Shown here: piece after piece, positions 33,251-63,164 of the stretch
Numbering within the stretch: the stretch's first letter is position 1
Layout: each line of letters opens with the position of its first letter
NCBI GenBank assembly: GCA_018222765.1
Contig: JAAEZT010000007.1
Location: 62,001-126,000, forward strand
From: a bacterium
Lineage (GTDB): Bacteria; Verrucomicrobiota; Verrucomicrobiia; Verrucomicrobiales; Akkermansiaceae
Reading direction: 5' to 3'
DNA: 64,000 nucleotides
The notes under the pieces: model-generated
Told to the model about the DNA's origin: nothing
What the model saw: only the letters and a program-made list of their open reading frames with translations
The model's database searches: none
Program-made: the position numbers and the translations under genes

Positions 33251-33898
33251 GTGAAAGAAATTTGGGAACAGGCTCTCTTGGCTTACAATCTGCCGCTGAC
33301 GATTTTGTTGGGGTTGGTGTTCCTTTTTTGGATTTTTAGTCTGATAGGCTTGGGGGACGCTGACGCCAAGGTGGAAATCGATGGATCGATAGATGCCGAT
33401 GCGGATGGCGATGTTGATGCCGACGGGGTGTTTGGATTTTTAATGCGGTTGGTGAACGCCCAGGATGTCCCGGTGATGCTCGTGCTGAGCTTACTCACTC
33501 TTTTCATGTGGGCTGTTGCGATTTCTTCCAACTATTATTTTAATCCGGGACAGAGTAGCGGGTTGGCTTTTGTATTTCTTTTTGGAAACTTCATTCTCAG
33601 CGTTTTTATGGTGAGGCTCGCAACCCAGCCGCTCCGTCCGTTTTTTCACTCAATCAAAAATGACAAAGAGCACCAGGAACCGCTGATTGGTTCATCCGGA
33701 GTGGTGAAAAGCCGGGTGCTGGATCGAGATTTTGGACAGTGTGAGGTTGGTCGGCCCAAAGGGGCTCCGGCTTTGCTTAATTGCCGATTGGCGGAGGAGG
33801 ATAAGCCATTGGTGAGGGGCGATCAGATTTTGATAATTGGATTCGATGACGTGAACCAGAAGTTCATCGCGAAAACAGACAAATTAAACGTAAAATAA
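33251..33898 (+). CDS. YqiJ-like inner-membrane protein with OB-fold tail
   Basis: 215 residues starting at a GTG; no ATG is available upstream in frame near the start. Membrane segments lie at about residues 14-37 (LPLTILLGLVFLFWIFSLIG), 74-95 (VPVMLVLSLLTLFMWAVAIS) and 102-125 (SGLAFVFLFGNFILSVFMV). An Asp-rich stretch between the first two (DGSIDADADGDVDADG) could bind calcium or other cations. The C-terminal domain (LIGSSGVVKSRVLDRDFGQC) looks like the OB-fold found in YqiJ and NfeD-type partners of flotillins. The flotillin gene starts one base after its stop, as in yqiJ-yqiK pairs, so the two proteins probably act together in membrane microdomains. Confidence 0.75.
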   Translation: MKEIWEQALLAYNLPLTILLGLVFLFWIFSLIGLGDADAKVEIDGSIDADADGDVDADGVFGFLMRLVNAQDVPVMLVLSLLTLFMWAVAISSNYYFNPGQSSGLAFVFLFGNFILSVFMVRLATQPLRPFFHSIKNDKEHQEPLIGSSGVVKSRVLDRDFGQCEVGRPKGAPALLNCRLAEEDKPLVRGDQILIIGFDDVNQKFIAKTDKLNVK

Positions 33899-33899
33899 A

Positions 33900-35927
33900 A
33901 TGATGAAAATAAATGAAATAATGCCCTTGGCATTTGGATTCGAGTTACTTCTCGCGATTGGAATTGGAACGTTAGTCCTGGCTGGATTGGCAGCCTTTTT
34001 AATGCTGACATTTTACCGCAAGGTGGAAAAGGGAACCTCATTGGTTCGAACAGGTTGGGGCGGGACAAAAGTCTATTTCAACGGAGGAGTTGTCTACCCG
34101 ATCATGCATCGAATCGACCATATGGATATTTCGCTGAAGCGGATCGAGATTGACCGGACCGGAAAGAACGGACTGATCTGTAAGGATAATCTTCGCGCTG
34201 ATATTAAAGTTGCCTTCTTCGTAAGGGTAAACAATGCCTCGGAAGACGTTCTTCGGGTTGCCGAGTCTATCGGTTGTGATCGGGCCTCATCCGAGGAAGA
34301 GATCCGCGCTCTTTTCGATGCAAAATTTTCGGAGGCCCTCAAAACCGTGGGTAAGCGGTTTGATTTTATCGCTCTCTATGAGGATCGGGACACTTTTAGG
34401 GACGAGATTTTGAAGGTCATCGGAACAGATCTTAATGGTTTTGTTCTCGATGATGCCGCGATCGACTACCTTGAGCAAACTCCGCTCTCGATGCTTGATC
34501 CGGATAACATTCTCGATGCCGAAGGTATTAAGAAGATTACCGAACTGACTGCGACGCAGGCCAAGCTTGCGAACAATATCCAGCGGGATAAAGAGAAAGT
34601 CATCAAGCAGCAGGATGTCGAAGCCCGTGAAGCCATTCTTGAACTCGAACGTCAGCTGAAGGAGACCGAAGCCAAGCAGGAACGTGAAGTGGAGACGGTG
34701 AGGTTCCGTGAAGAAGCCGAAGCTTTAAAAGTTCAGGAAGAGGAACGCCAGAAGTCCGAGCAAGCCCGAATTTCCGCCGAGGAAGAGATCCAAATTGCCG
34801 AAGAAAACAAGCAGCGCCAGGTCCTGGTTGCTCTGCGCAATAAAGAACGCACCGATGGCGTTGAGCTCGAACGTGTCGAGCGCGAGCGCATGCTTGAAGA
34901 GATTGAACGCAAACGCGTCACCGAGCTGAAATCCATCGAAGCCGAGAAGGTGATTGAGGTTCAGAAGAAGGAGATTCAGGAAGTGATCCGTGAGCGGGTT
35001 TCTGTTGAAAAAGGGGTTGTTGAAGAGCAGCAGCGCATCAAGGACACTGAAGAATTTGCCACGGCTGATCGCTTTAAGCAGGTGACCGTGACCACTGCCG
35101 AGGCGAATGCCGAAGAGCAGCTCATTAGAAAAATTAAGGAAGCTGAGGCTGGTAAGGAAGCGGCACAACTCAAGGCTGATGAGGATGCCTACATCGTTCT
35201 CAAGGAAGCTGAAGCAGCCAAATCGGCAGCAGAGATGCGTGCTGAAGAGCGTGTGATTCAGGCTGAAGCCGAGCAAACCGCATCCGAGAAGGAAGCCGAA
35301 GCCAAGAAGATGATTGCGGAAGCCGTCGTGAAGGAATCTTCCGCCGAGGGATTGGGTGAAGCCGATGTCATTCGCGCCAGAGGAACTGCGGATGCCGAAG
35401 CGATCGAACAGAAAGCGGCCGCGATGAAACTCTTCGAAGAGTCCGGTCAGGAGCACGAAGAATTCAAGCTCGAGCTGGATAAGGCGAAACAAGTCGAACT
35501 CGCCGAGATCGATGTCCAGCGTCAGATTGCGGAACAGCAGGCAGTCGTGGTGGGTGAGGCTCTTAAGTCAGCCAACATCGATATCGTCGGTGGCGAGACC
35601 CAGTTCTTCGACCGTATCACCAATGCCATTACTACTGGTAAGGTTGTTGATCGCACCGTGGGGAACAGTGAAGTGCTCGATGATGTGAAGGAGACATTCT
35701 TCAACGGAGATCCTGATTACTTCAAGTCGCAGCTTGCGACCTGGATTGATGACTTTGGAATCTCAACCGAAGACATCAAAAATCTCAGTATCAGTGCTCT
35801 GCTTGGAAACTTGATGAGCACCGCCAAAGGAGAAGAACGTAAAAAAGTCGTCGGCCTCCTCGGTGCTGCCGAGCGTTTCGGAGTAGGTGACATGAAAGCC
35901 GCCGACCTCCTGAAGAAGTTGGGCTAA
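33900..35927 (+). CDS. flotillin-family SPFH protein (YqiK-like)
   Basis: 675 residues. One N-terminal membrane segment (ELLLAIGIGTLVLAGLAAFL), an SPFH/band-7 domain to about residue 230 (GTSLVRTGWGGTKVYFNGGV, DIKVAFFVRVNNASEDVLRV), then roughly 300 residues of Glu/Ala/Lys-rich coiled coil as in flotillins (EAEAAKSAAEMRAEERVIQA). A C-terminal folded tail follows (NIDIVGGETQFFDRITNAIT). Such proteins oligomerise at the inner membrane and organise lipid domains. It directly follows the YqiJ-like gene. The large ATPase starts 361 bases downstream on the same strand, suggesting one functional cluster. Confidence 0.88.
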   Translation: MMKINEIMPLAFGFELLLAIGIGTLVLAGLAAFLMLTFYRKVEKGTSLVRTGWGGTKVYFNGGVVYPIMHRIDHMDISLKRIEIDRTGKNGLICKDNLRADIKVAFFVRVNNASEDVLRVAESIGCDRASSEEEIRALFDAKFSEALKTVGKRFDFIALYEDRDTFRDEILKVIGTDLNGFVLDDAAIDYLEQTPLSMLDPDNILDAEGIKKITELTATQAKLANNIQRDKEKVIKQQDVEAREAILELERQLKETEAKQEREVETVRFREEAEALKVQEEERQKSEQARISAEEEIQIAEENKQRQVLVALRNKERTDGVELERVERERMLEEIERKRVTELKSIEAEKVIEVQKKEIQEVIRERVSVEKGVVEEQQRIKDTEEFATADRFKQVTVTTAEANAEEQLIRKIKEAEAGKEAAQLKADEDAYIVLKEAEAAKSAAEMRAEERVIQAEAEQTASEKEAEAKKMIAEAVVKESSAEGLGEADVIRARGTADAEAIEQKAAAMKLFEESGQEHEEFKLELDKAKQVELAEIDVQRQIAEQQAVVVGEALKSANIDIVGGETQFFDRITNAITTGKVVDRTVGNSEVLDDVKETFFNGDPDYFKSQLATWIDDFGISTEDIKNLSISALLGNLMSTAKGEERKKVVGLLGAAERFGVGDMKAADLLKKLG

Positions 35928-35990
35928 TCAGAATGCGGATCTGGCAAACTTGGCAGATCTTGGTTTTGGAATCAACACGGCATATTGGAA

Positions 35991-36212
35991 ATGGACCTCA
36001 TTCAAAGAGACCAGTCACACAAACTTATTGGAGCCTTTTTTCAGGGATACAATGAGATCGGGCCTGGCTTTCTGGATGAAGTTTATCACCAATCGTTGGA
36101 GTACGAGCCGGAAACAGTTAAGCTACCGGATAATCCGCGTTATACCCAAGTCTTCAATTCCCTCAAAGCTACGGCGTTCCAAGTGGATTCACCGAATCGT
36201 CCACACTCATAA
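35991..36212 (+). pseudogene. truncated GxxExxY-family gene remnant
   Basis: Frame from ATG 35991 reads MDLIQRDQSHKLIGAFFQGY then NEIGPGFLDEVYHQSLEYE. This matches the N-terminal third of GxxExxY proteins (typical pattern IIGAAIEVHNELGPGFLExxYxxAL). The family is normally about 125 residues; here similarity ends after roughly 40 residues and the frame stops at 73. It is a 5' stub lying between the flotillin and ATPase genes. No ribosome site is obvious. Confidence 0.7.
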
Positions 36213-36215
36213 ATA

Positions 36216-36242
36216 ATCCGTAAAATCCGCACGATCCGCGTT
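36216..36242. repeat. three 9-base tandem repeats ATCCGnnnn
   Basis: ATCCG occurs at 36216, 36225 and 36234 with an exact nine-base period (ATCCGTAAA, ATCCGCACG, ATCCGCGTT). It lies just after the GxxExxY stub and before the ATPase gene, and could mark an insertion or recombination scar. The rest of the gap from 35928 to 36288 holds only the stub and the ATPase leader. Confidence 0.5.
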
Positions 36243-36288
36243 CTTTTCCCAATCTTAAAGGAGAGGGCCGCAATCTAAGAAGAATAGA

Positions 36289-39200
36289 ATGTCAGAAGAA
36301 AAATCCCAACAACTCGAGGGCGGTGCCTATGAGGTGATCCGTGCCCGGCTTGAGAAGGGCTCGACGGAGCTGCAGTCCCGGATGGGTCGGCTCAATGAGC
36401 AACGCCAAGAGGTGTTCGGTTCAGTCGAGACGGCTTTGGTCTCAACCGAGCGGGTATCAACCGAACATAGCTGTGTTCCTCGCGATATCATCGCGATCGG
36501 GCACAACCGCTTTCTCTTCGGATACAATATCCAGTTTGGGCTCAAGGCCACGACTTCGATCGAAGACGTCTTTAATGTCTACGACTACGATCAGGAATCG
36601 CACACTTTCTCTCCGGTTCCCGTTGAGAAAGTCCTCTCCGACTCTGCTTTCTTGGACGATTTTAAATATCTCTACAAATACTATCGTCAGGCGGTCTTTG
36701 TGAAATTCATGGTGATCGGGCCGAACCTCTACATGGGGCTTCGAATCGGAAAAACGATCGCCGACCTCAAGGCCTTTAAGTGGCTTATGAAGGGGGACGG
36801 CACCCTCGAGTATATTGGGAACCGTTTCGACCATGAATATCAGTTTCCGCCTCAACAGGAATTCGAGTGGAAACGGGCGCATCGTGATATGCAACGTCCA
36901 GGCGAGCATCCTCATGTTTCGATTGAAGATCGGGTCTTTGTCGAAACGGTGGGAGGCGATCTCACCATCAAGGTTGAAGATAACACCGAGACCGGATCCG
37001 GGATTTATGAGGAACCGGTAACCGAGGCTGATCAAACGCTCGATGATGCCGAGATTCTCTATGCTGTTGTTGGGTCTTTGATTCTGCTGAAGATTCTTCC
37101 TTACCGCGAAGAACTCTATCGCTATCTCGTCTTCAATGAGAAGACCCAGACGGTGCATCGTGTCGACGCCATTGGGCATTCCTGTGTTCTACTGCCAGAC
37201 GAGCAAGGGATTATTTTCTCGAACGGGTATCTGCTTCTCACCGGTGAGTCGAAAGTCTTCGAGACGGATCTTACCGACATGCGCTTTGAGCGCCGCATCG
37301 CCAGTGCGAATGGCGAGGATACGCTCTTTGTATTCTACAACCGGAAGAGCGGTGACTACGTCCTGCTCTCCTACAATATGATTTCGCAATCCGTGGACAC
37401 TCCGGTGGTCTGCAACGGATACTCGCTCTTTCCGGACGGGCGGATGATTCTTTTTCGGACGGAAGAAGAGGCGCAGAAACATCACGCACTTCAGATTTGG
37501 CAGACTTCGTATCTCTCCGATGAAGCGGCCTCCAGCCAGGCCTCCAATAACGAGTCGTATCTCTTCAAGATCGGCAACGCGGAGTTGGTTCGCGGCATGG
37601 CTGAGTGTCGTGAAGTTTTGACACTTCTCCGCAAGGATGACAACTATGGCGATCTCTACCTTGATCTGTCGAAGAAGGCTGGAGACATCATCGATTCCTA
37701 CTTTTGGTTGGGGCAGGAAAATGCCGGGAACCTCGCCGAGCCGCTTAGGGATATTCGCGGTGCGGCGACGGCGGCGATTGATGAGTTCGAGAAAGTCCAG
37801 GGGCTTCGACGTTCGACCAAGGAGCGGACTGGTTCCGTTCGGGAGGCAGTCGAGACTTTGTTGAAGTCTGTCAGGCATTCGCCGCCTGATGATATTTTTG
37901 GATTTGTCCATCACCTCTCTGAATTGCGAAAGCGACGTGGGGAAGTGATTGGCTTGCGCGACCTGCGCTATGTCGACGGCACCCTGGTCGATGATCTTGA
38001 AAAAGAAGTCGCGACGGCCGCAGATGATACCGCAGCCAAAACGGTAGCCTTCCTGCTCAAGCCGGAGTCGTTGAATCCTTACCGCGAGGCGGTCGAATCC
38101 CAGCAGGCGAAGCTTCCTAAGTTGGTCAAGGTCATCGACGCCGACGAAGTGGCCGAGGCTCTCGATCAATCCGGCACGGAGTTGGAGATGCTCATCGATG
38201 TGGTGGGGAATCTCAAGATTGAGGACGCCACTCAGACCACCGCGATCATTGATAGCGTTTCGGGGATATACTCGACACTGAATGGTGTTCGTGCCGAGCT
38301 GAAGAACAAGCGCAAGGATCTCGCGAAGGGCGAGGGCGTGGCGCAGTTCGGAGCGCAGATGAAGTTGTTGGGCCAGTCGGTGGTCAACTATCTTGATCTC
38401 TGCGACAGCCCGGAGAAGTGCGAGGAATACCTCACCAAGGTGATGGTTCAGCTCGAAGAGTTGGAAGGTAAGTTCGCGGAGTTTGATGAATACATCGAAG
38501 AACTCTCGGCAAAGCGCGAGGAGATTTACGAGGCCTTCGAAGGTCGGAAGCAATCGCTGCTGGAAAAGCGTAATCGGCGTACCAATCAGTTGGTGAAATC
38601 AGCCGAGCGGATTCTATCGGGGATCAAGCATCGTCTCGAAGGCTTTTCCGAGATCAACGAAATCAACGGCTACTTCGCCGGTGATTTGATGATCGAGAAA
38701 GTCCGCGATATTATTGCGGAACTGACCGAGGCTGGAGATGCCGTCAAAGGTGATGATATTCAGACCCGCCTCAAAACAACGCGTGATGACGCGGTGCGGG
38801 CTCTCAAGGACCGAAAGGAACTCTTTGTCGATGGTCAGGCCATCATCAAGTTCGGAAAGCATCGATTTTCGGTCAACGAACAGGATCTGGAATTGTCCAT
38901 CGTGCCCCGTGAAGGAGAGATGTGCTTCCACCTTTCGGGCACGAATTTTTTTGAGGAGATCAAAGACGAATCTTTCCTCTCGACCAGCGCGGTTTGGGAC
39001 CAGGAGGTGATCAGTGAGACCAAGGAGGTTTATCGGGCCGAGTATCTCGCTTACAAGTTCTTGAAATCGGGAGAGGAGGATCTCAATGCCTTCATGCAGC
39101 CGAGGTATTCCGAGGGCTACCTAAAAGGCGTACACGATCTCGACGCAGCCAAGATTGTTGAAGTGCTCAAGCCGATGCACGAAGAGGCGGGCTTGTTACG

Positions 39201-41268
39201 CTACAGCCCCCGCACTCGCGCCAAGGCTTTGTTGGCCTGGGAAGAATGGGACGAGGAAAAGAAAGCCGGCTTTAGAGGGCGTCTGCTGGCGCATGGTCAG
39301 CGGAAGAAGTTTTTTGGAGATGATGATGCCGCTGAGACTTGGGGCAGTCTTCTCATGGTCGAAATGGAGGATGACGACAACGTTCACCTCACTGAAGAGC
39401 AGGGAGAGTATCTTTATTATGAACTCACAGGTGATGAAGCCTTCGTAGTCTCTCGCGAGGCTGCAGATATTTATAAGCACTTCAAAAGCGAACTCACCGC
39501 AAAGAGGGCTGATAAGGCCTTCGCGTCAGTTCTCGAACCGTTTCAGGATTCAATCTCCGGTCGCTTTGGGGTGATCCTTGATTGGTTCATGGCGCTTTCT
39601 ACGGAAGACGCCATCTACGAAGCCGCCTTCTGGCTGGCCAAGGGTGGTTACGAAGAGCGTTGGGTGAAGACGGTAGAGCTGACTGCTGAGATCGAGGGCT
39701 TGAAAGGAAGTCATCGACTTGTTGAAGAGGGAAAGCTTTCGCTTCACTACCATGAATTTATGAACCGTTTGGCTGCTTTTGAGGAGTCGGAGGTTCCGAC
39801 TTTCCAAGCTTATGTCGAAACCAAGCAGGCTTTGGTCGAGGATAAGCGGGAAGAGATGCGTCTCGATGAGTTTAAGCCGCGGGTCATGAGCGCCTTCGTG
39901 CGAAACCGTTTAATTAACGAAGTTTATCTTCCCATGGTCGGAGACAACCTCGCCAAGCAAATGGGCACGGCAGGTGGCGATACCCGGACGGACAGGATGG
40001 GGCTCCTGCTTCTCATCTCACCTCCGGGATACGGAAAGACGACGCTCATGGAGTATATCGGGAATCGCCTCGGTTTAACCTTCATGAAGATCAACGGCCC
40101 GGCTCTCGGGCACGAAGTGACTTCGCTCGATCCCGCCGACGCTCCCAATGCCTCGGCGCGTGAAGAGATTTGCAAATTGAACCTCGCTCTTGAGATGGGG
40201 GATAACGTGATGATTTACCTCGATGACATTCAGCATACTCATTCTGAGTTTTTGCAGAAATTCATCAGTCTTTGTGACGGGCAGAGAAAAATCGAAGGTG
40301 TCTACAATGGCAAGGCCCGAACGTATGACCTGCGTGGTAAAAAAGTCGCCGTGGTGATGGCGGGTAACCCCTACACCGAGACTGGTGGCAAGTTCCAAAT
40401 CCCCGACATGCTCGCGAACCGTGCAGACACCTACAACTTGGGTGATATTCTCGGCGATCATGAGGAAGCCTTTAAATATAGCTTCATCGAAAACTGTCTA
40501 ACTTCGAACAGCGTGCTTTCCAAGCTGGCCTCCAAGAGTCAAAAGGATGTTTATGCCGCCATGGCCATTGCCGAGACTGGGAGCCAGGAGGGCGTTGATT
40601 TTGAAGGGAACTACACTCCGGCTGAGATCGAGGAATTTTCCAAAACTCTCAAACATCTCTTCCGCATTCGCGATACCATCCTTCGCGTGAACCTGGAATA
40701 CATCGACAGTGCAGCGCAGGAAGACGCCTATCGCGTTGAGCCGAGCTTTAAGCTCCAAGGTTCCTATCGGAACATGAATCGCATCGCTGAAAAGGTGATT
40801 CCGCTCATGACGCCGGAGGAAGTCGAAGGTCTCATCTTTGATCACTATCAAAACGAATCTCAAACCCTCACCACTGGTGCGGAAGCGAATTTGCTGAAGT
40901 TTAGGGAGCTCGAAGGTGTCCTCACCGGCGAGGAACAAGCCCGCTGGGATCAGATTAAGAAAGACTTTGGAAAGCAGAAGCTCCTCGGCGGAGCAGGGGA
41001 GAACGATCCCGTCGCCCGCGTTGTCGCTCAGATGACTCAGTTCAACGACGGACTCGAAGCGATTTCAACCGGCCTAACCCGACCGCAAAATCTCGCCGAA
41101 GCCAGCATCGAGCAACTCCAGAAAATCATCGAAGGACTCAGAGCCGTCCCTGTGAAAGTCGATATCAACGTCGTGCCAGTGCAGGATGAAGGTGATTCGA
41201 TCGAGAGTATTGAAAAGAGGTCCTCTCCACCGATCGATATTGTGCCTGAGGTGAGCCAGGGGGACTGA
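36289..41268 (+). CDS. very large AAA-type ATPase with DUF3686-like N-terminus
   Basis: 1659 residues, no signal peptide. The N-terminal ~450 residues are beta-rich with repeated propeller-like strands (IIAIGHNRFLFGYNIQFGLK, DTLFVFYNRKSGDYVLLSYN), like the DUF3686 region of proteins often labelled DNA-repair ATPase. Long helical and coiled-coil parts follow (about 450-900). The ATPase core has Walker A SPPGYGKTTL at about 1244-1253 and Walker B MIYLDDIQH at about 1308. It continues with VVMAGNPYTETGGKFQIPDM and an Arg-containing lid (NRADTYNLGDI). The name DNA repair is historical and not supported by any nuclease or DNA-binding motif seen here. Linkage to the flotillin and YqiJ-like genes suggests a membrane-associated remodelling machine, which is inference. 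Confidence 0.72.
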   Translation: MSEEKSQQLEGGAYEVIRARLEKGSTELQSRMGRLNEQRQEVFGSVETALVSTERVSTEHSCVPRDIIAIGHNRFLFGYNIQFGLKATTSIEDVFNVYDYDQESHTFSPVPVEKVLSDSAFLDDFKYLYKYYRQAVFVKFMVIGPNLYMGLRIGKTIADLKAFKWLMKGDGTLEYIGNRFDHEYQFPPQQEFEWKRAHRDMQRPGEHPHVSIEDRVFVETVGGDLTIKVEDNTETGSGIYEEPVTEADQTLDDAEILYAVVGSLILLKILPYREELYRYLVFNEKTQTVHRVDAIGHSCVLLPDEQGIIFSNGYLLLTGESKVFETDLTDMRFERRIASANGEDTLFVFYNRKSGDYVLLSYNMISQSVDTPVVCNGYSLFPDGRMILFRTEEEAQKHHALQIWQTSYLSDEAASSQASNNESYLFKIGNAELVRGMAECREVLTLLRKDDNYGDLYLDLSKKAGDIIDSYFWLGQENAGNLAEPLRDIRGAATAAIDEFEKVQGLRRSTKERTGSVREAVETLLKSVRHSPPDDIFGFVHHLSELRKRRGEVIGLRDLRYVDGTLVDDLEKEVATAADDTAAKTVAFLLKPESLNPYREAVESQQAKLPKLVKVIDADEVAEALDQSGTELEMLIDVVGNLKIEDATQTTAIIDSVSGIYSTLNGVRAELKNKRKDLAKGEGVAQFGAQMKLLGQSVVNYLDLCDSPEKCEEYLTKVMVQLEELEGKFAEFDEYIEELSAKREEIYEAFEGRKQSLLEKRNRRTNQLVKSAERILSGIKHRLEGFSEINEINGYFAGDLMIEKVRDIIAELTEAGDAVKGDDIQTRLKTTRDDAVRALKDRKELFVDGQAIIKFGKHRFSVNEQDLELSIVPREGEMCFHLSGTNFFEEIKDESFLSTSAVWDQEVISETKEVYRAEYLAYKFLKSGEEDLNAFMQPRYSEGYLKGVHDLDAAKIVEVLKPMHEEAGLLRYSPRTRAKALLAWEEWDEEKKAGFRGRLLAHGQRKKFFGDDDAAETWGSLLMVEMEDDDNVHLTEEQGEYLYYELTGDEAFVVSREAADIYKHFKSELTAKRADKAFASVLEPFQDSISGRFGVILDWFMALSTEDAIYEAAFWLAKGGYEERWVKTVELTAEIEGLKGSHRLVEEGKLSLHYHEFMNRLAAFEESEVPTFQAYVETKQALVEDKREEMRLDEFKPRVMSAFVRNRLINEVYLPMVGDNLAKQMGTAGGDTRTDRMGLLLLISPPGYGKTTLMEYIGNRLGLTFMKINGPALGHEVTSLDPADAPNASAREEICKLNLALEMGDNVMIYLDDIQHTHSEFLQKFISLCDGQRKIEGVYNGKARTYDLRGKKVAVVMAGNPYTETGGKFQIPDMLANRADTYNLGDILGDHEEAFKYSFIENCLTSNSVLSKLASKSQKDVYAAMAIAETGSQEGVDFEGNYTPAEIEEFSKTLKHLFRIRDTILRVNLEYIDSAAQEDAYRVEPSFKLQGSYRNMNRIAEKVIPLMTPEEVEGLIFDHYQNESQTLTTGAEANLLKFRELEGVLTGEEQARWDQIKKDFGKQKLLGGAGENDPVARVVAQMTQFNDGLEAISTGLTRPQNLAEASIEQLQKIIEGLRAVPVKVDINVVPVQDEGDSIESIEKRSSPPIDIVPEVSQGD

Positions 41269-61985: not shown

Positions 61986-63164
61986 ATGAATATTCACGAG
62001 TATCAAGCAAAAGAGCTTTTCGACCGTTTTGAAGTTCCCAGTCCACGGGGCCAAATGGCTGAATCAGCTGAATCGGCGCAAGCCATCGCAGAAGAAATTG
62101 GCTCCGATCTCATGGTCGTGAAAGCCCAGGTCCACGCCGGAGGGCGCGGAAAGGGGACTTTCAAGAACGGCTTTGAAGGGGGAGTACATCTCACCAAGAG
62201 TGCCACCGACATTGGCGAGATCGCCGGCAAGATGCTCGGCCAGACTCTCGTCACCAAACAGACCGGCGAAGAAGGTCGTCTTGTCCGCAAGGTCATGGTT
62301 GCCGACGCGGTGGACATTGAGCACGAATATTACCTCTCTCTTCTCATGGACCGCGACACCAGTCGTCCCGTGGTCGTCGTTTCGACTGAAGGCGGCATGG
62401 ATATTGAAGCCGTCGCTGAAGAGACTCCCGAGAAGATCATCAAGCAGCTCATTCATCCGCTCGCCGGTCTCCAAGCCTACGAAATTCGTAAGCTCACCGC
62501 CGCTCTTGGATTTCAAGGCGCCGCGGCCAAGCAGTTTGGCAAACTCCTCAAGAATCTCTACAAGCTCTTTGTCTCGCTCGATTGCGACATGGTGGAAATT
62601 AACCCGCTCGTCGAAACCAAGGACGGACAGGTGCTCGCGCTCGATGCCAAGTTCGGCTTTGACGACAACGCGCTTTATCGTCACCCCGAAGTGCTCGCCT
62701 ACCGCGATACCGAGGAGGAAGATCCCCGCGAGGTCGCGGCGTCCGAATTTGATCTCAGCTATATTGGTCTCGATGGAAATATCGCCTGCCTCGTGAACGG
62801 AGCCGGATTGGCCATGGCCACGATGGATGCCATCAAGTTCGCCGGAGGTGATCCTGCCAACTTTCTCGACGTTGGCGGCGGTGCCACCAAGGAACAAGTT
62901 GTCGGCGCCTTCAACATCATCCAATCCGATTCCAAAGTCGAAGCGATCCTCATCAACATCTTCGGAGGAATCATGGACTGCAACGTCATCGCTGAAGGCG
63001 TAGTCGCGGCTGTTCAGGAAACGGGCTTGAAGCTTCCGCTTATCGTTCGTCTCGAAGGAAACAACGTGGCCGCTGGTCGCGAAACCCTCAAGGCCTCCGG
63101 GCTTGCCATCACCGGCGCGGAAGACCTCGCTGATGCCGCCAAGAAAGCTGTCGCCTCTGTCTAA
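61986..63164 (+). CDS. sucC: succinyl-CoA ligase (ADP-forming) beta subunit
   Basis: 392 residues from ATG 61986, the conserved start [12 protein letters not shown]; an upstream in-frame opening at 61941 adds an unrelated leader. ATP-grasp features: [60 protein letters not shown] with metal ligands, [34 protein letters not shown] and [20 protein letters not shown]. It carries out substrate-level phosphorylation in the TCA cycle with SucD. Its stop is 21 bases before sucD. Confidence 0.95.

Follow-up and report, generated by a model that had tools for sequence, protein, structure and literature searches.

What a giant ATPase does beside a bacterial flotillin, and whether the label of DNA repair protein suits it, is the question raised by a locus in a 64,000-nt stretch of an Akkermansiaceae genome (Verrucomicrobiota; GenBank assembly GCA_018222765.1, contig JAAEZT010000007.1, forward-strand positions 62,001 to 126,000), hereafter the window. 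Between window positions 33251 and 41268, three open reading frames (ORFs) follow one another on the plus strand, encoding a YqiJ/NfeD-like protein, an SPFH/flotillin-family protein and an AAA+ ATPase with a DUF3686 domain (Table 1). A preliminary description made from the sequence alone had presented them as one cluster headed by a flotillin pair. All three ORFs are present; the pair is not two flotillins, consisting instead of one flotillin and its YqiJ/NfeD-like partner. Here, we show that the linkage of the three genes goes far beyond chance and that the trio recurs in many bacterial phyla. The cluster in the window corresponds to the PSP-associated flotillin operon described by Ravi et al. 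2024 (mSystems, PMC11237479), in its short form.

A recurrent YqiJ-flotillin-ATPase cluster

In a first survey of 58 genomes, DUF3686 was detected in the host and in 28 relatives, and neighbourhoods were taken from 20 of the latter. The order YqiJ-flotillin-ATPase on a single strand was kept in all 20 of these order-level loci, with some genes cut by contig ends. A wider survey of named genomes confirmed at least 579 relatives, of which the best 80 loci were analysed, some of them duplicating contigs of the 20-locus survey. A flotillin gene was found near the ATPase gene in 69 of the 80, upstream and on the same strand in 68 and divergent in one (L125), and a YqiJ-like gene was found in 58. 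In the 68 loci, the flotillin-ATPase gap had a median of 131 bp (≤100 bp in 27, ≤400 bp in 49, maximum 2069 bp). Six of the 11 loci without flotillin have less than 700 bp of upstream DNA before the contig ends, and the other five (L069, L083, L086, L091 and L129) have at least 1.5 kb. Four of these five genomes carry a flotillin of the family elsewhere; two of the matches are split in two, and one is truncated at the end of a contig. A plasmid collection added 12 further records, some of them chromosome-sized, including Actinomycetota, Deinococcota and Gammaproteobacteria. The neighbourhood survey thus revealed neither an absence of recurrent linkage nor unrelated partners for the ATPase, and it bears out the cluster as first described. 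Within the order of the host, DUF3686 has a patchy distribution (90 of 249 genomes).

In the window, the flotillin ORF begins 1 bp past the stop of the YqiJ-like ORF, and the 361-bp gap before the ATPase gene (35928-36288) is occupied by the remnant of a GxxExxY gene. This gap contains one promoter-like site and no terminator-like site; promoter-like sites for the ATPase gene were at chance level (7 versus a mean of 6.1 in shuffles). The host genome (4.33 Mb, 97.8% complete) holds no other DUF3686 match, and the closest named relatives of the ATPase, among the matches listed, are metagenome-assembled genomes (MAGs) of Akkermansiaceae and Verrucomicrobiales with 74-80% identity. Of the 10 loci from the host's genus, 8 have an M42 aminopeptidase gene next to the cluster on its upstream side, compared with none of the other 10 loci, and for this reason it was not counted in the system.

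The two membrane proteins are divergent members of their families. The YqiJ-like protein of the window has a weak Pfam match to YqiJ_N, below the cut-off (E 0.006); at E ≤0.1, YqiJ_N was detected in 9 of 20 family members (best 3.6e-8) and NfeD in 3 of 20 (best 0.0049), and the family profile weakly matched the YuaF structure 2k14 (E 0.026). Searched as a whole protein, the flotillin matched no Pfam family at E 1, and residues 1-230 alone scored Band_7 above the cut-off (E 1.6e-9). Whole-protein Band_7 matches were obtained in 3 of 24 flotillin-family members. A weak partial FloT match at residues 424-515 lies far below its cut-off, and the flotillin profile gave two weak matches against PDB sequences (QmcA, E 0.0054). 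Hydropathy predicts three transmembrane segments in the YqiJ-like protein, one in the flotillin and a marginal one in the ATPase, located within its propeller; a large ATPase tied to a flotillin, with no clear membrane segment of its own, agrees with the huge cytosolic ATPase of the preliminary description.

The preliminary description had regarded the cluster as an undescribed system, and in this it was mistaken, as the same operon, including a short form without PspA, is reported in PMC11237479, where it is proposed to act in sub-membrane assembly. The features of that operon recur here: a band-7/flotillin protein with a transmembrane segment (residues 4-22) and a coiled coil, an AAA+ domain fused to a beta-propeller and a coiled coil, and a three-transmembrane protein of the YqiJ/YuaF type, for which family matches are weak to moderate. 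Unlike the long form, the window lacks the CesT/Tir-PspA dyad, as judged by the absence of a PF04012 match (no CesT/Tir profile search was made), and the short form needs none. The host also differs in carrying a distant PspA-like gene on another contig and a decayed GxxExxY gene in the flotillin-ATPase gap. The main text of PMC11237479 uses none of the words GxxExxY, PDDEXK and MoxR; relative to that text, the MoxR-like motor fold and the GxxExxY lineage in the gap of Verrucomicrobiota are new. In the literature searched, we found no mention of DUF3686 or PF12458 and nothing that pairs a flotillin with a 'DNA repair ATPase' or with AAA+ and MoxR. For an operon of flotillin, PspA and AAA ATPase, only PMC11237479 was found in the literature from 2018 on; PMC10936438, in the part available, treats ESCRT systems and not this operon.

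Three observations concern variants of the cluster. In L125, the ATPase gene and the YqiJ-flotillin pair stand head to head on opposite strands. Four loci have an additional gene, placed after the YqiJ-like gene and ahead of that for the full flotillin, whose product is short (about 180-200 aa) and consists of SPFH only; Band_7 scores above the cut-off in three of them. An apparent 3320-aa ATPase 'fusion' in L072 was rejected as an artefact of reading through a run of N; this row was kept in the N-terminal alignment, which precedes the Ns, and left out of the C-terminal one.

Table 1. Coordinates of the cluster and of related features (window positions, unless a locus is named)
Feature	Position	Strand	Details
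YqiJ/NfeD-like inner-membrane protein	33251-33898	+	GTG start, 215 aa; predicted transmembrane segments 16-34, 67-85 and 105-123, soluble C-terminal part
SPFH/flotillin-family scaffold	33900-35927	+	675 aa; hydrophobic segment 4-22, Band_7 about 41-181, long charged coiled-coil-like region
Decayed GxxExxY (PDDEXK_3, PF13366) gene	35985-36212	+	PF13366 match 36009-36119
DUF3686 AAA+ ATPase	36289-41268	+	1659 aa; relatives labelled 'DNA repair ATPase' in public records
WD40-like beta-propeller of the ATPase, N-terminal	36427-37509	+	Residues 47-407 (model)
Long helical/coiled-coil region of the ATPase	37576-38823	+	Residues 430-845 (model), with DUF7902 at 594-676 inside
AAA+ module of the ATPase, MoxR-like fold (model)	39847-40920	+	Residues 1187-1544; Walker A 1245-1252, Walker B 1309-1316, sensor-1 N1360, R1378
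GxxExxY genes in the gap, Verrucomicrobiota	L031, L032, L034, L036, L037/L053, L040, L043, L044, L045, L052, L062, L100	operon strand
Truncated second band-7 protein	L070 2451-3044, L080 6957-7508, L100 6793-7326
Truncated second band-7 protein	L125 8242-8793	-
ATPase and YqiJ-flotillin pair, head to head	L125 5950-14878	opposite
Host PspA-like gene and following AAA ATPase gene	L141 4323-6911		Contig C34
pQBR103 PSP-type gene set and trio	L203 986-14190

The ATPase and its predicted motor

DUF3686 (PF12458) covers residues 27-472 of the ATPase (E 4e-189), DUF7902 follows at 594-676, and AAA-type matches begin at about residue 1240. AlphaFold models were built from alignments of 60 and 58 rows for the N- and C-terminal parts (mean pLDDT 86.7 and 84.5), and these confident models back the combination of propeller, coiled coils and AAA core read from the sequence at the outset. 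Residues 47-407 are predicted to form a WD40-like propeller, which resembles the WDR domain of DCAF1 to a modest degree (Z 9.9, root-mean-square deviation 6.2, 226 aligned), with Sec12 and DCAF1 near the top in Foldseek, and residues 430-845 are modelled mostly as long helices. The listed fold matches barely test the parts outside residues 45-407 of the N-terminal model and 152-855 of the C-terminal model, and many of those for the latter extend over a wide stretch in which few residues are aligned; our claims on fold therefore leave out residues 430-1180.

The modelled AAA+ module is closest in fold to MoxR proteins. By VIA-align, CbbQ (Z 16.5, root-mean-square deviation 4.0, 253 of 267 aligned) and NorQ (Z 15.7, 242 aligned) are tied at the top, and dynein (14.2), ClpA (13.4) and midasin/Rea1 (13.3) score below them. 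In the Foldseek list for the C-terminal model, ordered by E-value, RuvB comes first, MCM chains next and CbbQ sixth; the TM-score by target is 0.60 for CbbQ versus 0.38 for the first RuvB row, with the top three RuvB rows at 0.38-0.41 except for one at 0.35. Two predicted strands (1334-1339 and 1342-1347) form a hairpin just ahead of the sensor-1 strand, and such a hairpin is typical of the MoxR/dynein/MCM branch. Unlike CbbQ and NorQ, the module is fused to a propeller and a long helical region in a single chain, and its AAA_5 match, at E 0.0021, yet with 18.5 versus 22 bits, is below the profile's cut-off.

PPGYGKTT of Walker A, DDIQH of Walker B, GNP of sensor 1 and R1378 are invariant among 70 sequences, and adjacent positions are less so. 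No protease, DNA-binding or repair domain was found above the cut-off in Pfam or NCBIfam, and the sequence matches to RuvB (below threshold) and p97 are limited to the P-loop region; the usual label of DNA repair thus has little visible support, in line with the preliminary description. Given the invariant motifs, the MoxR-like model and the lack of a detected protease or DNA domain, the protein looks like an active remodeller.

A proposed scaffold-bound remodeller and the place of PspA

Several known systems offer a frame for such a remodeller. In E. coli YqiJ-YqiK and B. subtilis YuaF-YuaG, an NfeD-like protein and an SPFH2-type flotillin are likewise encoded in one operon (PMC2636767), and DUF3686 was found in none of 14 control genomes, E. 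coli and B. subtilis included. The inner-membrane HflK/HflC-FtsH system joins an SPFH scaffold to an AAA+ machine, with HflK/C forming a cage that encloses AAA+ proteases (PMC11260169); here, the comparable pairing is known from genes. Unlike FtsH, the DUF3686 protein has no protease match (no zinc metalloprotease in Pfam or NCBIfam) and no clear transmembrane segment, and its AAA+ module is MoxR-like by model. Published findings on single scaffolds include a flotillin that stabilizes unfolded proteins in S. aureus, in an article with NfeD in its section headings (PMC11222466), and Shewanella SO1377, a YqiK-type flotillin adjoining a DUF1449 gene, whose knock-out has iron, mutation and peroxide phenotypes (PMC1468410). 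The exact functions of most bacterial SPFH scaffolds are described as unclear (PMC12005517).

Given these precedents and the domain anatomy, we regard a flotillin-NfeD scaffold served by a MoxR-like motor as the best reading of the cluster. The three genes would be transcribed as one operon, and the flotillin, aided by the YqiJ/NfeD-like protein, would oligomerize into a scaffold that covers part of the inner membrane. On this scaffold the DUF3686 protein might dock, with the propeller and the helical region as adaptor. Its AAA+ domains, as a putative MoxR-like ring, would use ATP to act on the protein complexes that the scaffold retains, remodelling, extracting or disassembling them; these clients may include distant PspA-like assemblies whose genes lie at other sites of the genome. 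Such a machine would serve the response to envelope stress or the upkeep of membrane proteins. We put the probability of this membrane-attached SPFH-AAA+ machine, performing ATP-driven protein remodelling at a flotillin-scaffolded membrane patch, at about one half. A role in membrane remodelling or stress is something we infer, as is the case in PMC11237479.

In the long form, a PspA-type gene was found in at least 15 of the 80 wider loci and a CesT/Tir-type gene in at least 13, all Bacteroidota by record title, and a helix-turn-helix gene in at least 16, on the opposite strand in 15; these counts come from similarity clustering and are lower bounds, with one member of each checked by Pfam. 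PF04012 confirmed one PspA member, and the Bacteroidota clusters hold PspA together with CesT_Tir_1 genes. On plasmid pQBR103, a PSP-type gene set precedes the trio; the order there is YjfI, PspA, a rhomboid protease, DUF2491, DUF350, DUF1190 and glutathionylspermidine synthase, followed by a hypothetical gene in the place of YqiJ and by genes for an SPFH protein and the DUF3686 ATPase. In Hymenobacter DG25B, the deposited annotation places a LexA-family regulator, a Tir chaperone, PspA and DUF1449 ahead of the trio.

In the host, a PF04012 search of the genome gave no match, and a relative's PspA-like protein used as query recovered a homologue with 81% identity on a different contig. The idea of a genome without PspA was dropped, the negative PF04012 result being a threshold effect. 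This host protein itself scores no PF04012, and its identity as PspA rests on relatives that do (e.g. G053, 53.6 versus a cut-off of 33.9 bits). Its gene, encoding a coiled-coil protein, is followed by one for a 552-aa AAA ATPase; a similar pair occurs in L134, L135 and L136 and not in L137.

PspA-like proteins were detected in 31 of the 58 genomes, G040 being counted also on a strong PF04012 match. In the host's genus, they occur in 14 of 15 DUF3686-positive versus 3 of 12 DUF3686-negative genomes by hand count, where several negatives are incomplete MAGs and joint absence is inflated. An rpoB tree of 55 of the 58 genomes (G011, G022 and G029, with no rpoB match, were left out) yielded 9-10 independent pairs, in which DUF3686 and the PspA-like gene changed together in 6.0 of 10 and oppositely in 0.2 (median p 0.031); restricted to genomes of ≥85% completeness, the test gave median p values of 0.22 and 0.06 in the two directions. 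For 249 genomes of the order, the counts are 51 with both genes, 39 with DUF3686 alone, 32 with the PspA-like gene alone and 127 with neither (Fisher p 1e-8 without tree correction; at most 10 candidates were scored per genome in one of the underlying searches). Three of the DUF3686-positive genomes of genus g17 were also searched with PF04012; two had no match and one had a partial match (E 8e-4). Since carriers of this genus lack a match to the PspA-like query and the co-occurrence under tree control depends on the completeness of the genomes, the tie of PspA to the operon is suggestive and not obligate.

A rival account would make PspA central, with the ATPase chiefly disassembling PspA/ESCRT-III-like filaments as a bacterial stand-in for Vps4 and the flotillin-YqiJ pair serving as membrane anchor. 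The upstream PspA genes of the long form and of pQBR103, the distant gene of the host and the joint counts in the order fit such an account, as does the finding that PspA of B. subtilis needs an SPFH protein to reach the membrane (cited in PMC10936438). The g17 carriers do not, nor does a host PspA-like protein that scores no PF04012 and adjoins its own AAA ATPase, and the co-occurrence remains suggestive once the tree is considered, so that we hold this account to be rather improbable.

Remodelling at a flotillin scaffold also faces evidence that weighs against it. RuvB and MCM helicases outrank CbbQ by Foldseek E-value, and a MoxR-like fold does not by itself specify a client. MoxR systems usually have a VWA partner; none was noticed, and no dedicated VWA search was made. 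In the literature searched, we found no experiment on any DUF3686 protein. The tree-controlled co-occurrence with PspA-like genes is not significant at completeness of at least 90% (median p 0.125 in both directions), and none of the 22 DUF3686-positive genomes of g17 has a match to the PspA-like query. In E. coli, which lacks the ATPase, deletion of YqiK caused no growth defect under the stresses tried, according to PMC2636767.

A GxxExxY gene in the flotillin-ATPase gap

The remnant in the gap of the window is the only PF13366 match found in the host genome. With a profile built from four gap copies, which also recovers copies from elsewhere (20 of 20 tested), we scanned 100 loci and the window, 2.0 Mb in all with some sequence duplicated. 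All matches with E ≤1e-4 fell in the flotillin-ATPase gap on the operon strand, in 12 loci, in L052, where the flotillin would fall past the contig end, and in the window; L053 duplicates L037. Genome-wide, PF13366 gave 80 matches in 29 of the 36 genomes searched; nine of the 80 are gap copies, in 9 of the 22 DUF3686-positive genomes of this search (counted by coordinates). Because about one non-gap copy is expected per 2 Mb, the absence of GxxExxY genes elsewhere in the loci says little; their concentration within one short gap is striking. The gene is intact in several relatives and missing from many loci; it is broken in the window, in L032 (a stop) and in L034 (a fragment), and shortened in L031 (profile positions 2-102 of 117).

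For a tree, we used 11 gap copies, omitting L053, L034 and the remnant in the window, together with 20 of the 71 copies located outside the gap. Ten of the gap copies and one outside copy (G043, contig C24) are set apart from the rest on a branch with support 100/98, and the 10 gap copies alone have support 92/84. The Cerasicoccus gap copy (L100) groups among 19 of the 20 copies from elsewhere, and the data reject a single clade comprising every gap copy (p-AU 0.005). Based on this branch, the placement of L100 and the rejected clade, one GxxExxY lineage has long resided in the gap, and at least one other copy reached the same place separately. Random repeated insertion is not favoured for most copies, as 10 of 11 cluster; a single old inherited insertion would yield the same tree picture. 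No literature linking GxxExxY with flotillins was found, as judged by titles.

A nuclease-like gene within the cluster raises the prospect of an anti-phage defence system in which it would act as effector in some members. A lineage lodged in the cluster of Verrucomicrobiota, trios carried by plasmids, among them pQBR103 and one of 169 kb from Hymenobacter, and the patchy occurrence in the order would all suit such a system. Against this, PADLOC returned just two weak partial matches (IetA 0.0015, LmuB 0.0039), neighbours not having been searched systematically for defence genes; in a scan of viral contigs, a single fragment of 68 residues was found and no full relative; and many copies of the cluster, the one in the window included, have a decayed GxxExxY gene or none. 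We therefore consider a defence function unlikely.

That the ATPase serves DNA repair or chromosome dynamics, with an incidental flotillin link, is the least credible account of all, as the annotations ('DNA repair ATPase', 'DNA repair protein'), the sub-threshold RuvB match near the P-loop, the RuvB and MCM helicases heading the Foldseek E-values and the raised spontaneous mutation and peroxide sensitivity of the Shewanella YqiK-type knock-out (PMC1468410, with no such ATPase mentioned in the part available) are set against the missing DNA-binding and repair domains, a whole-domain fit that favours CbbQ and NorQ, and a near-universal pairing with a membrane scaffold.

A wider picture, which we offer as speculation and with considerable doubt, is that many phyla share a non-proteolytic counterpart of HflK/C-FtsH, in which a flotillin-NfeD dome would work with a MoxR-type AAA+ ring carrying a WD40-like propeller as adaptor, and to which Verrucomicrobiota may have added a dedicated PD-(D/E)XK-like GxxExxY protein, once coupling membrane-scaffolded remodelling to a nucleic-acid enzyme.

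For annotation, the label 'DNA repair ATPase' in public records is to be treated as unsupported. The question of PspA becomes sharper, as one lineage appears to have the operon and to lack the PspA-like gene present in its relatives. SPFH scaffolds are widespread, and a cluster that nearly always pairs such a scaffold with its own ATP-driven motor offers a handle, through the clients and the ATP cycle of that motor.

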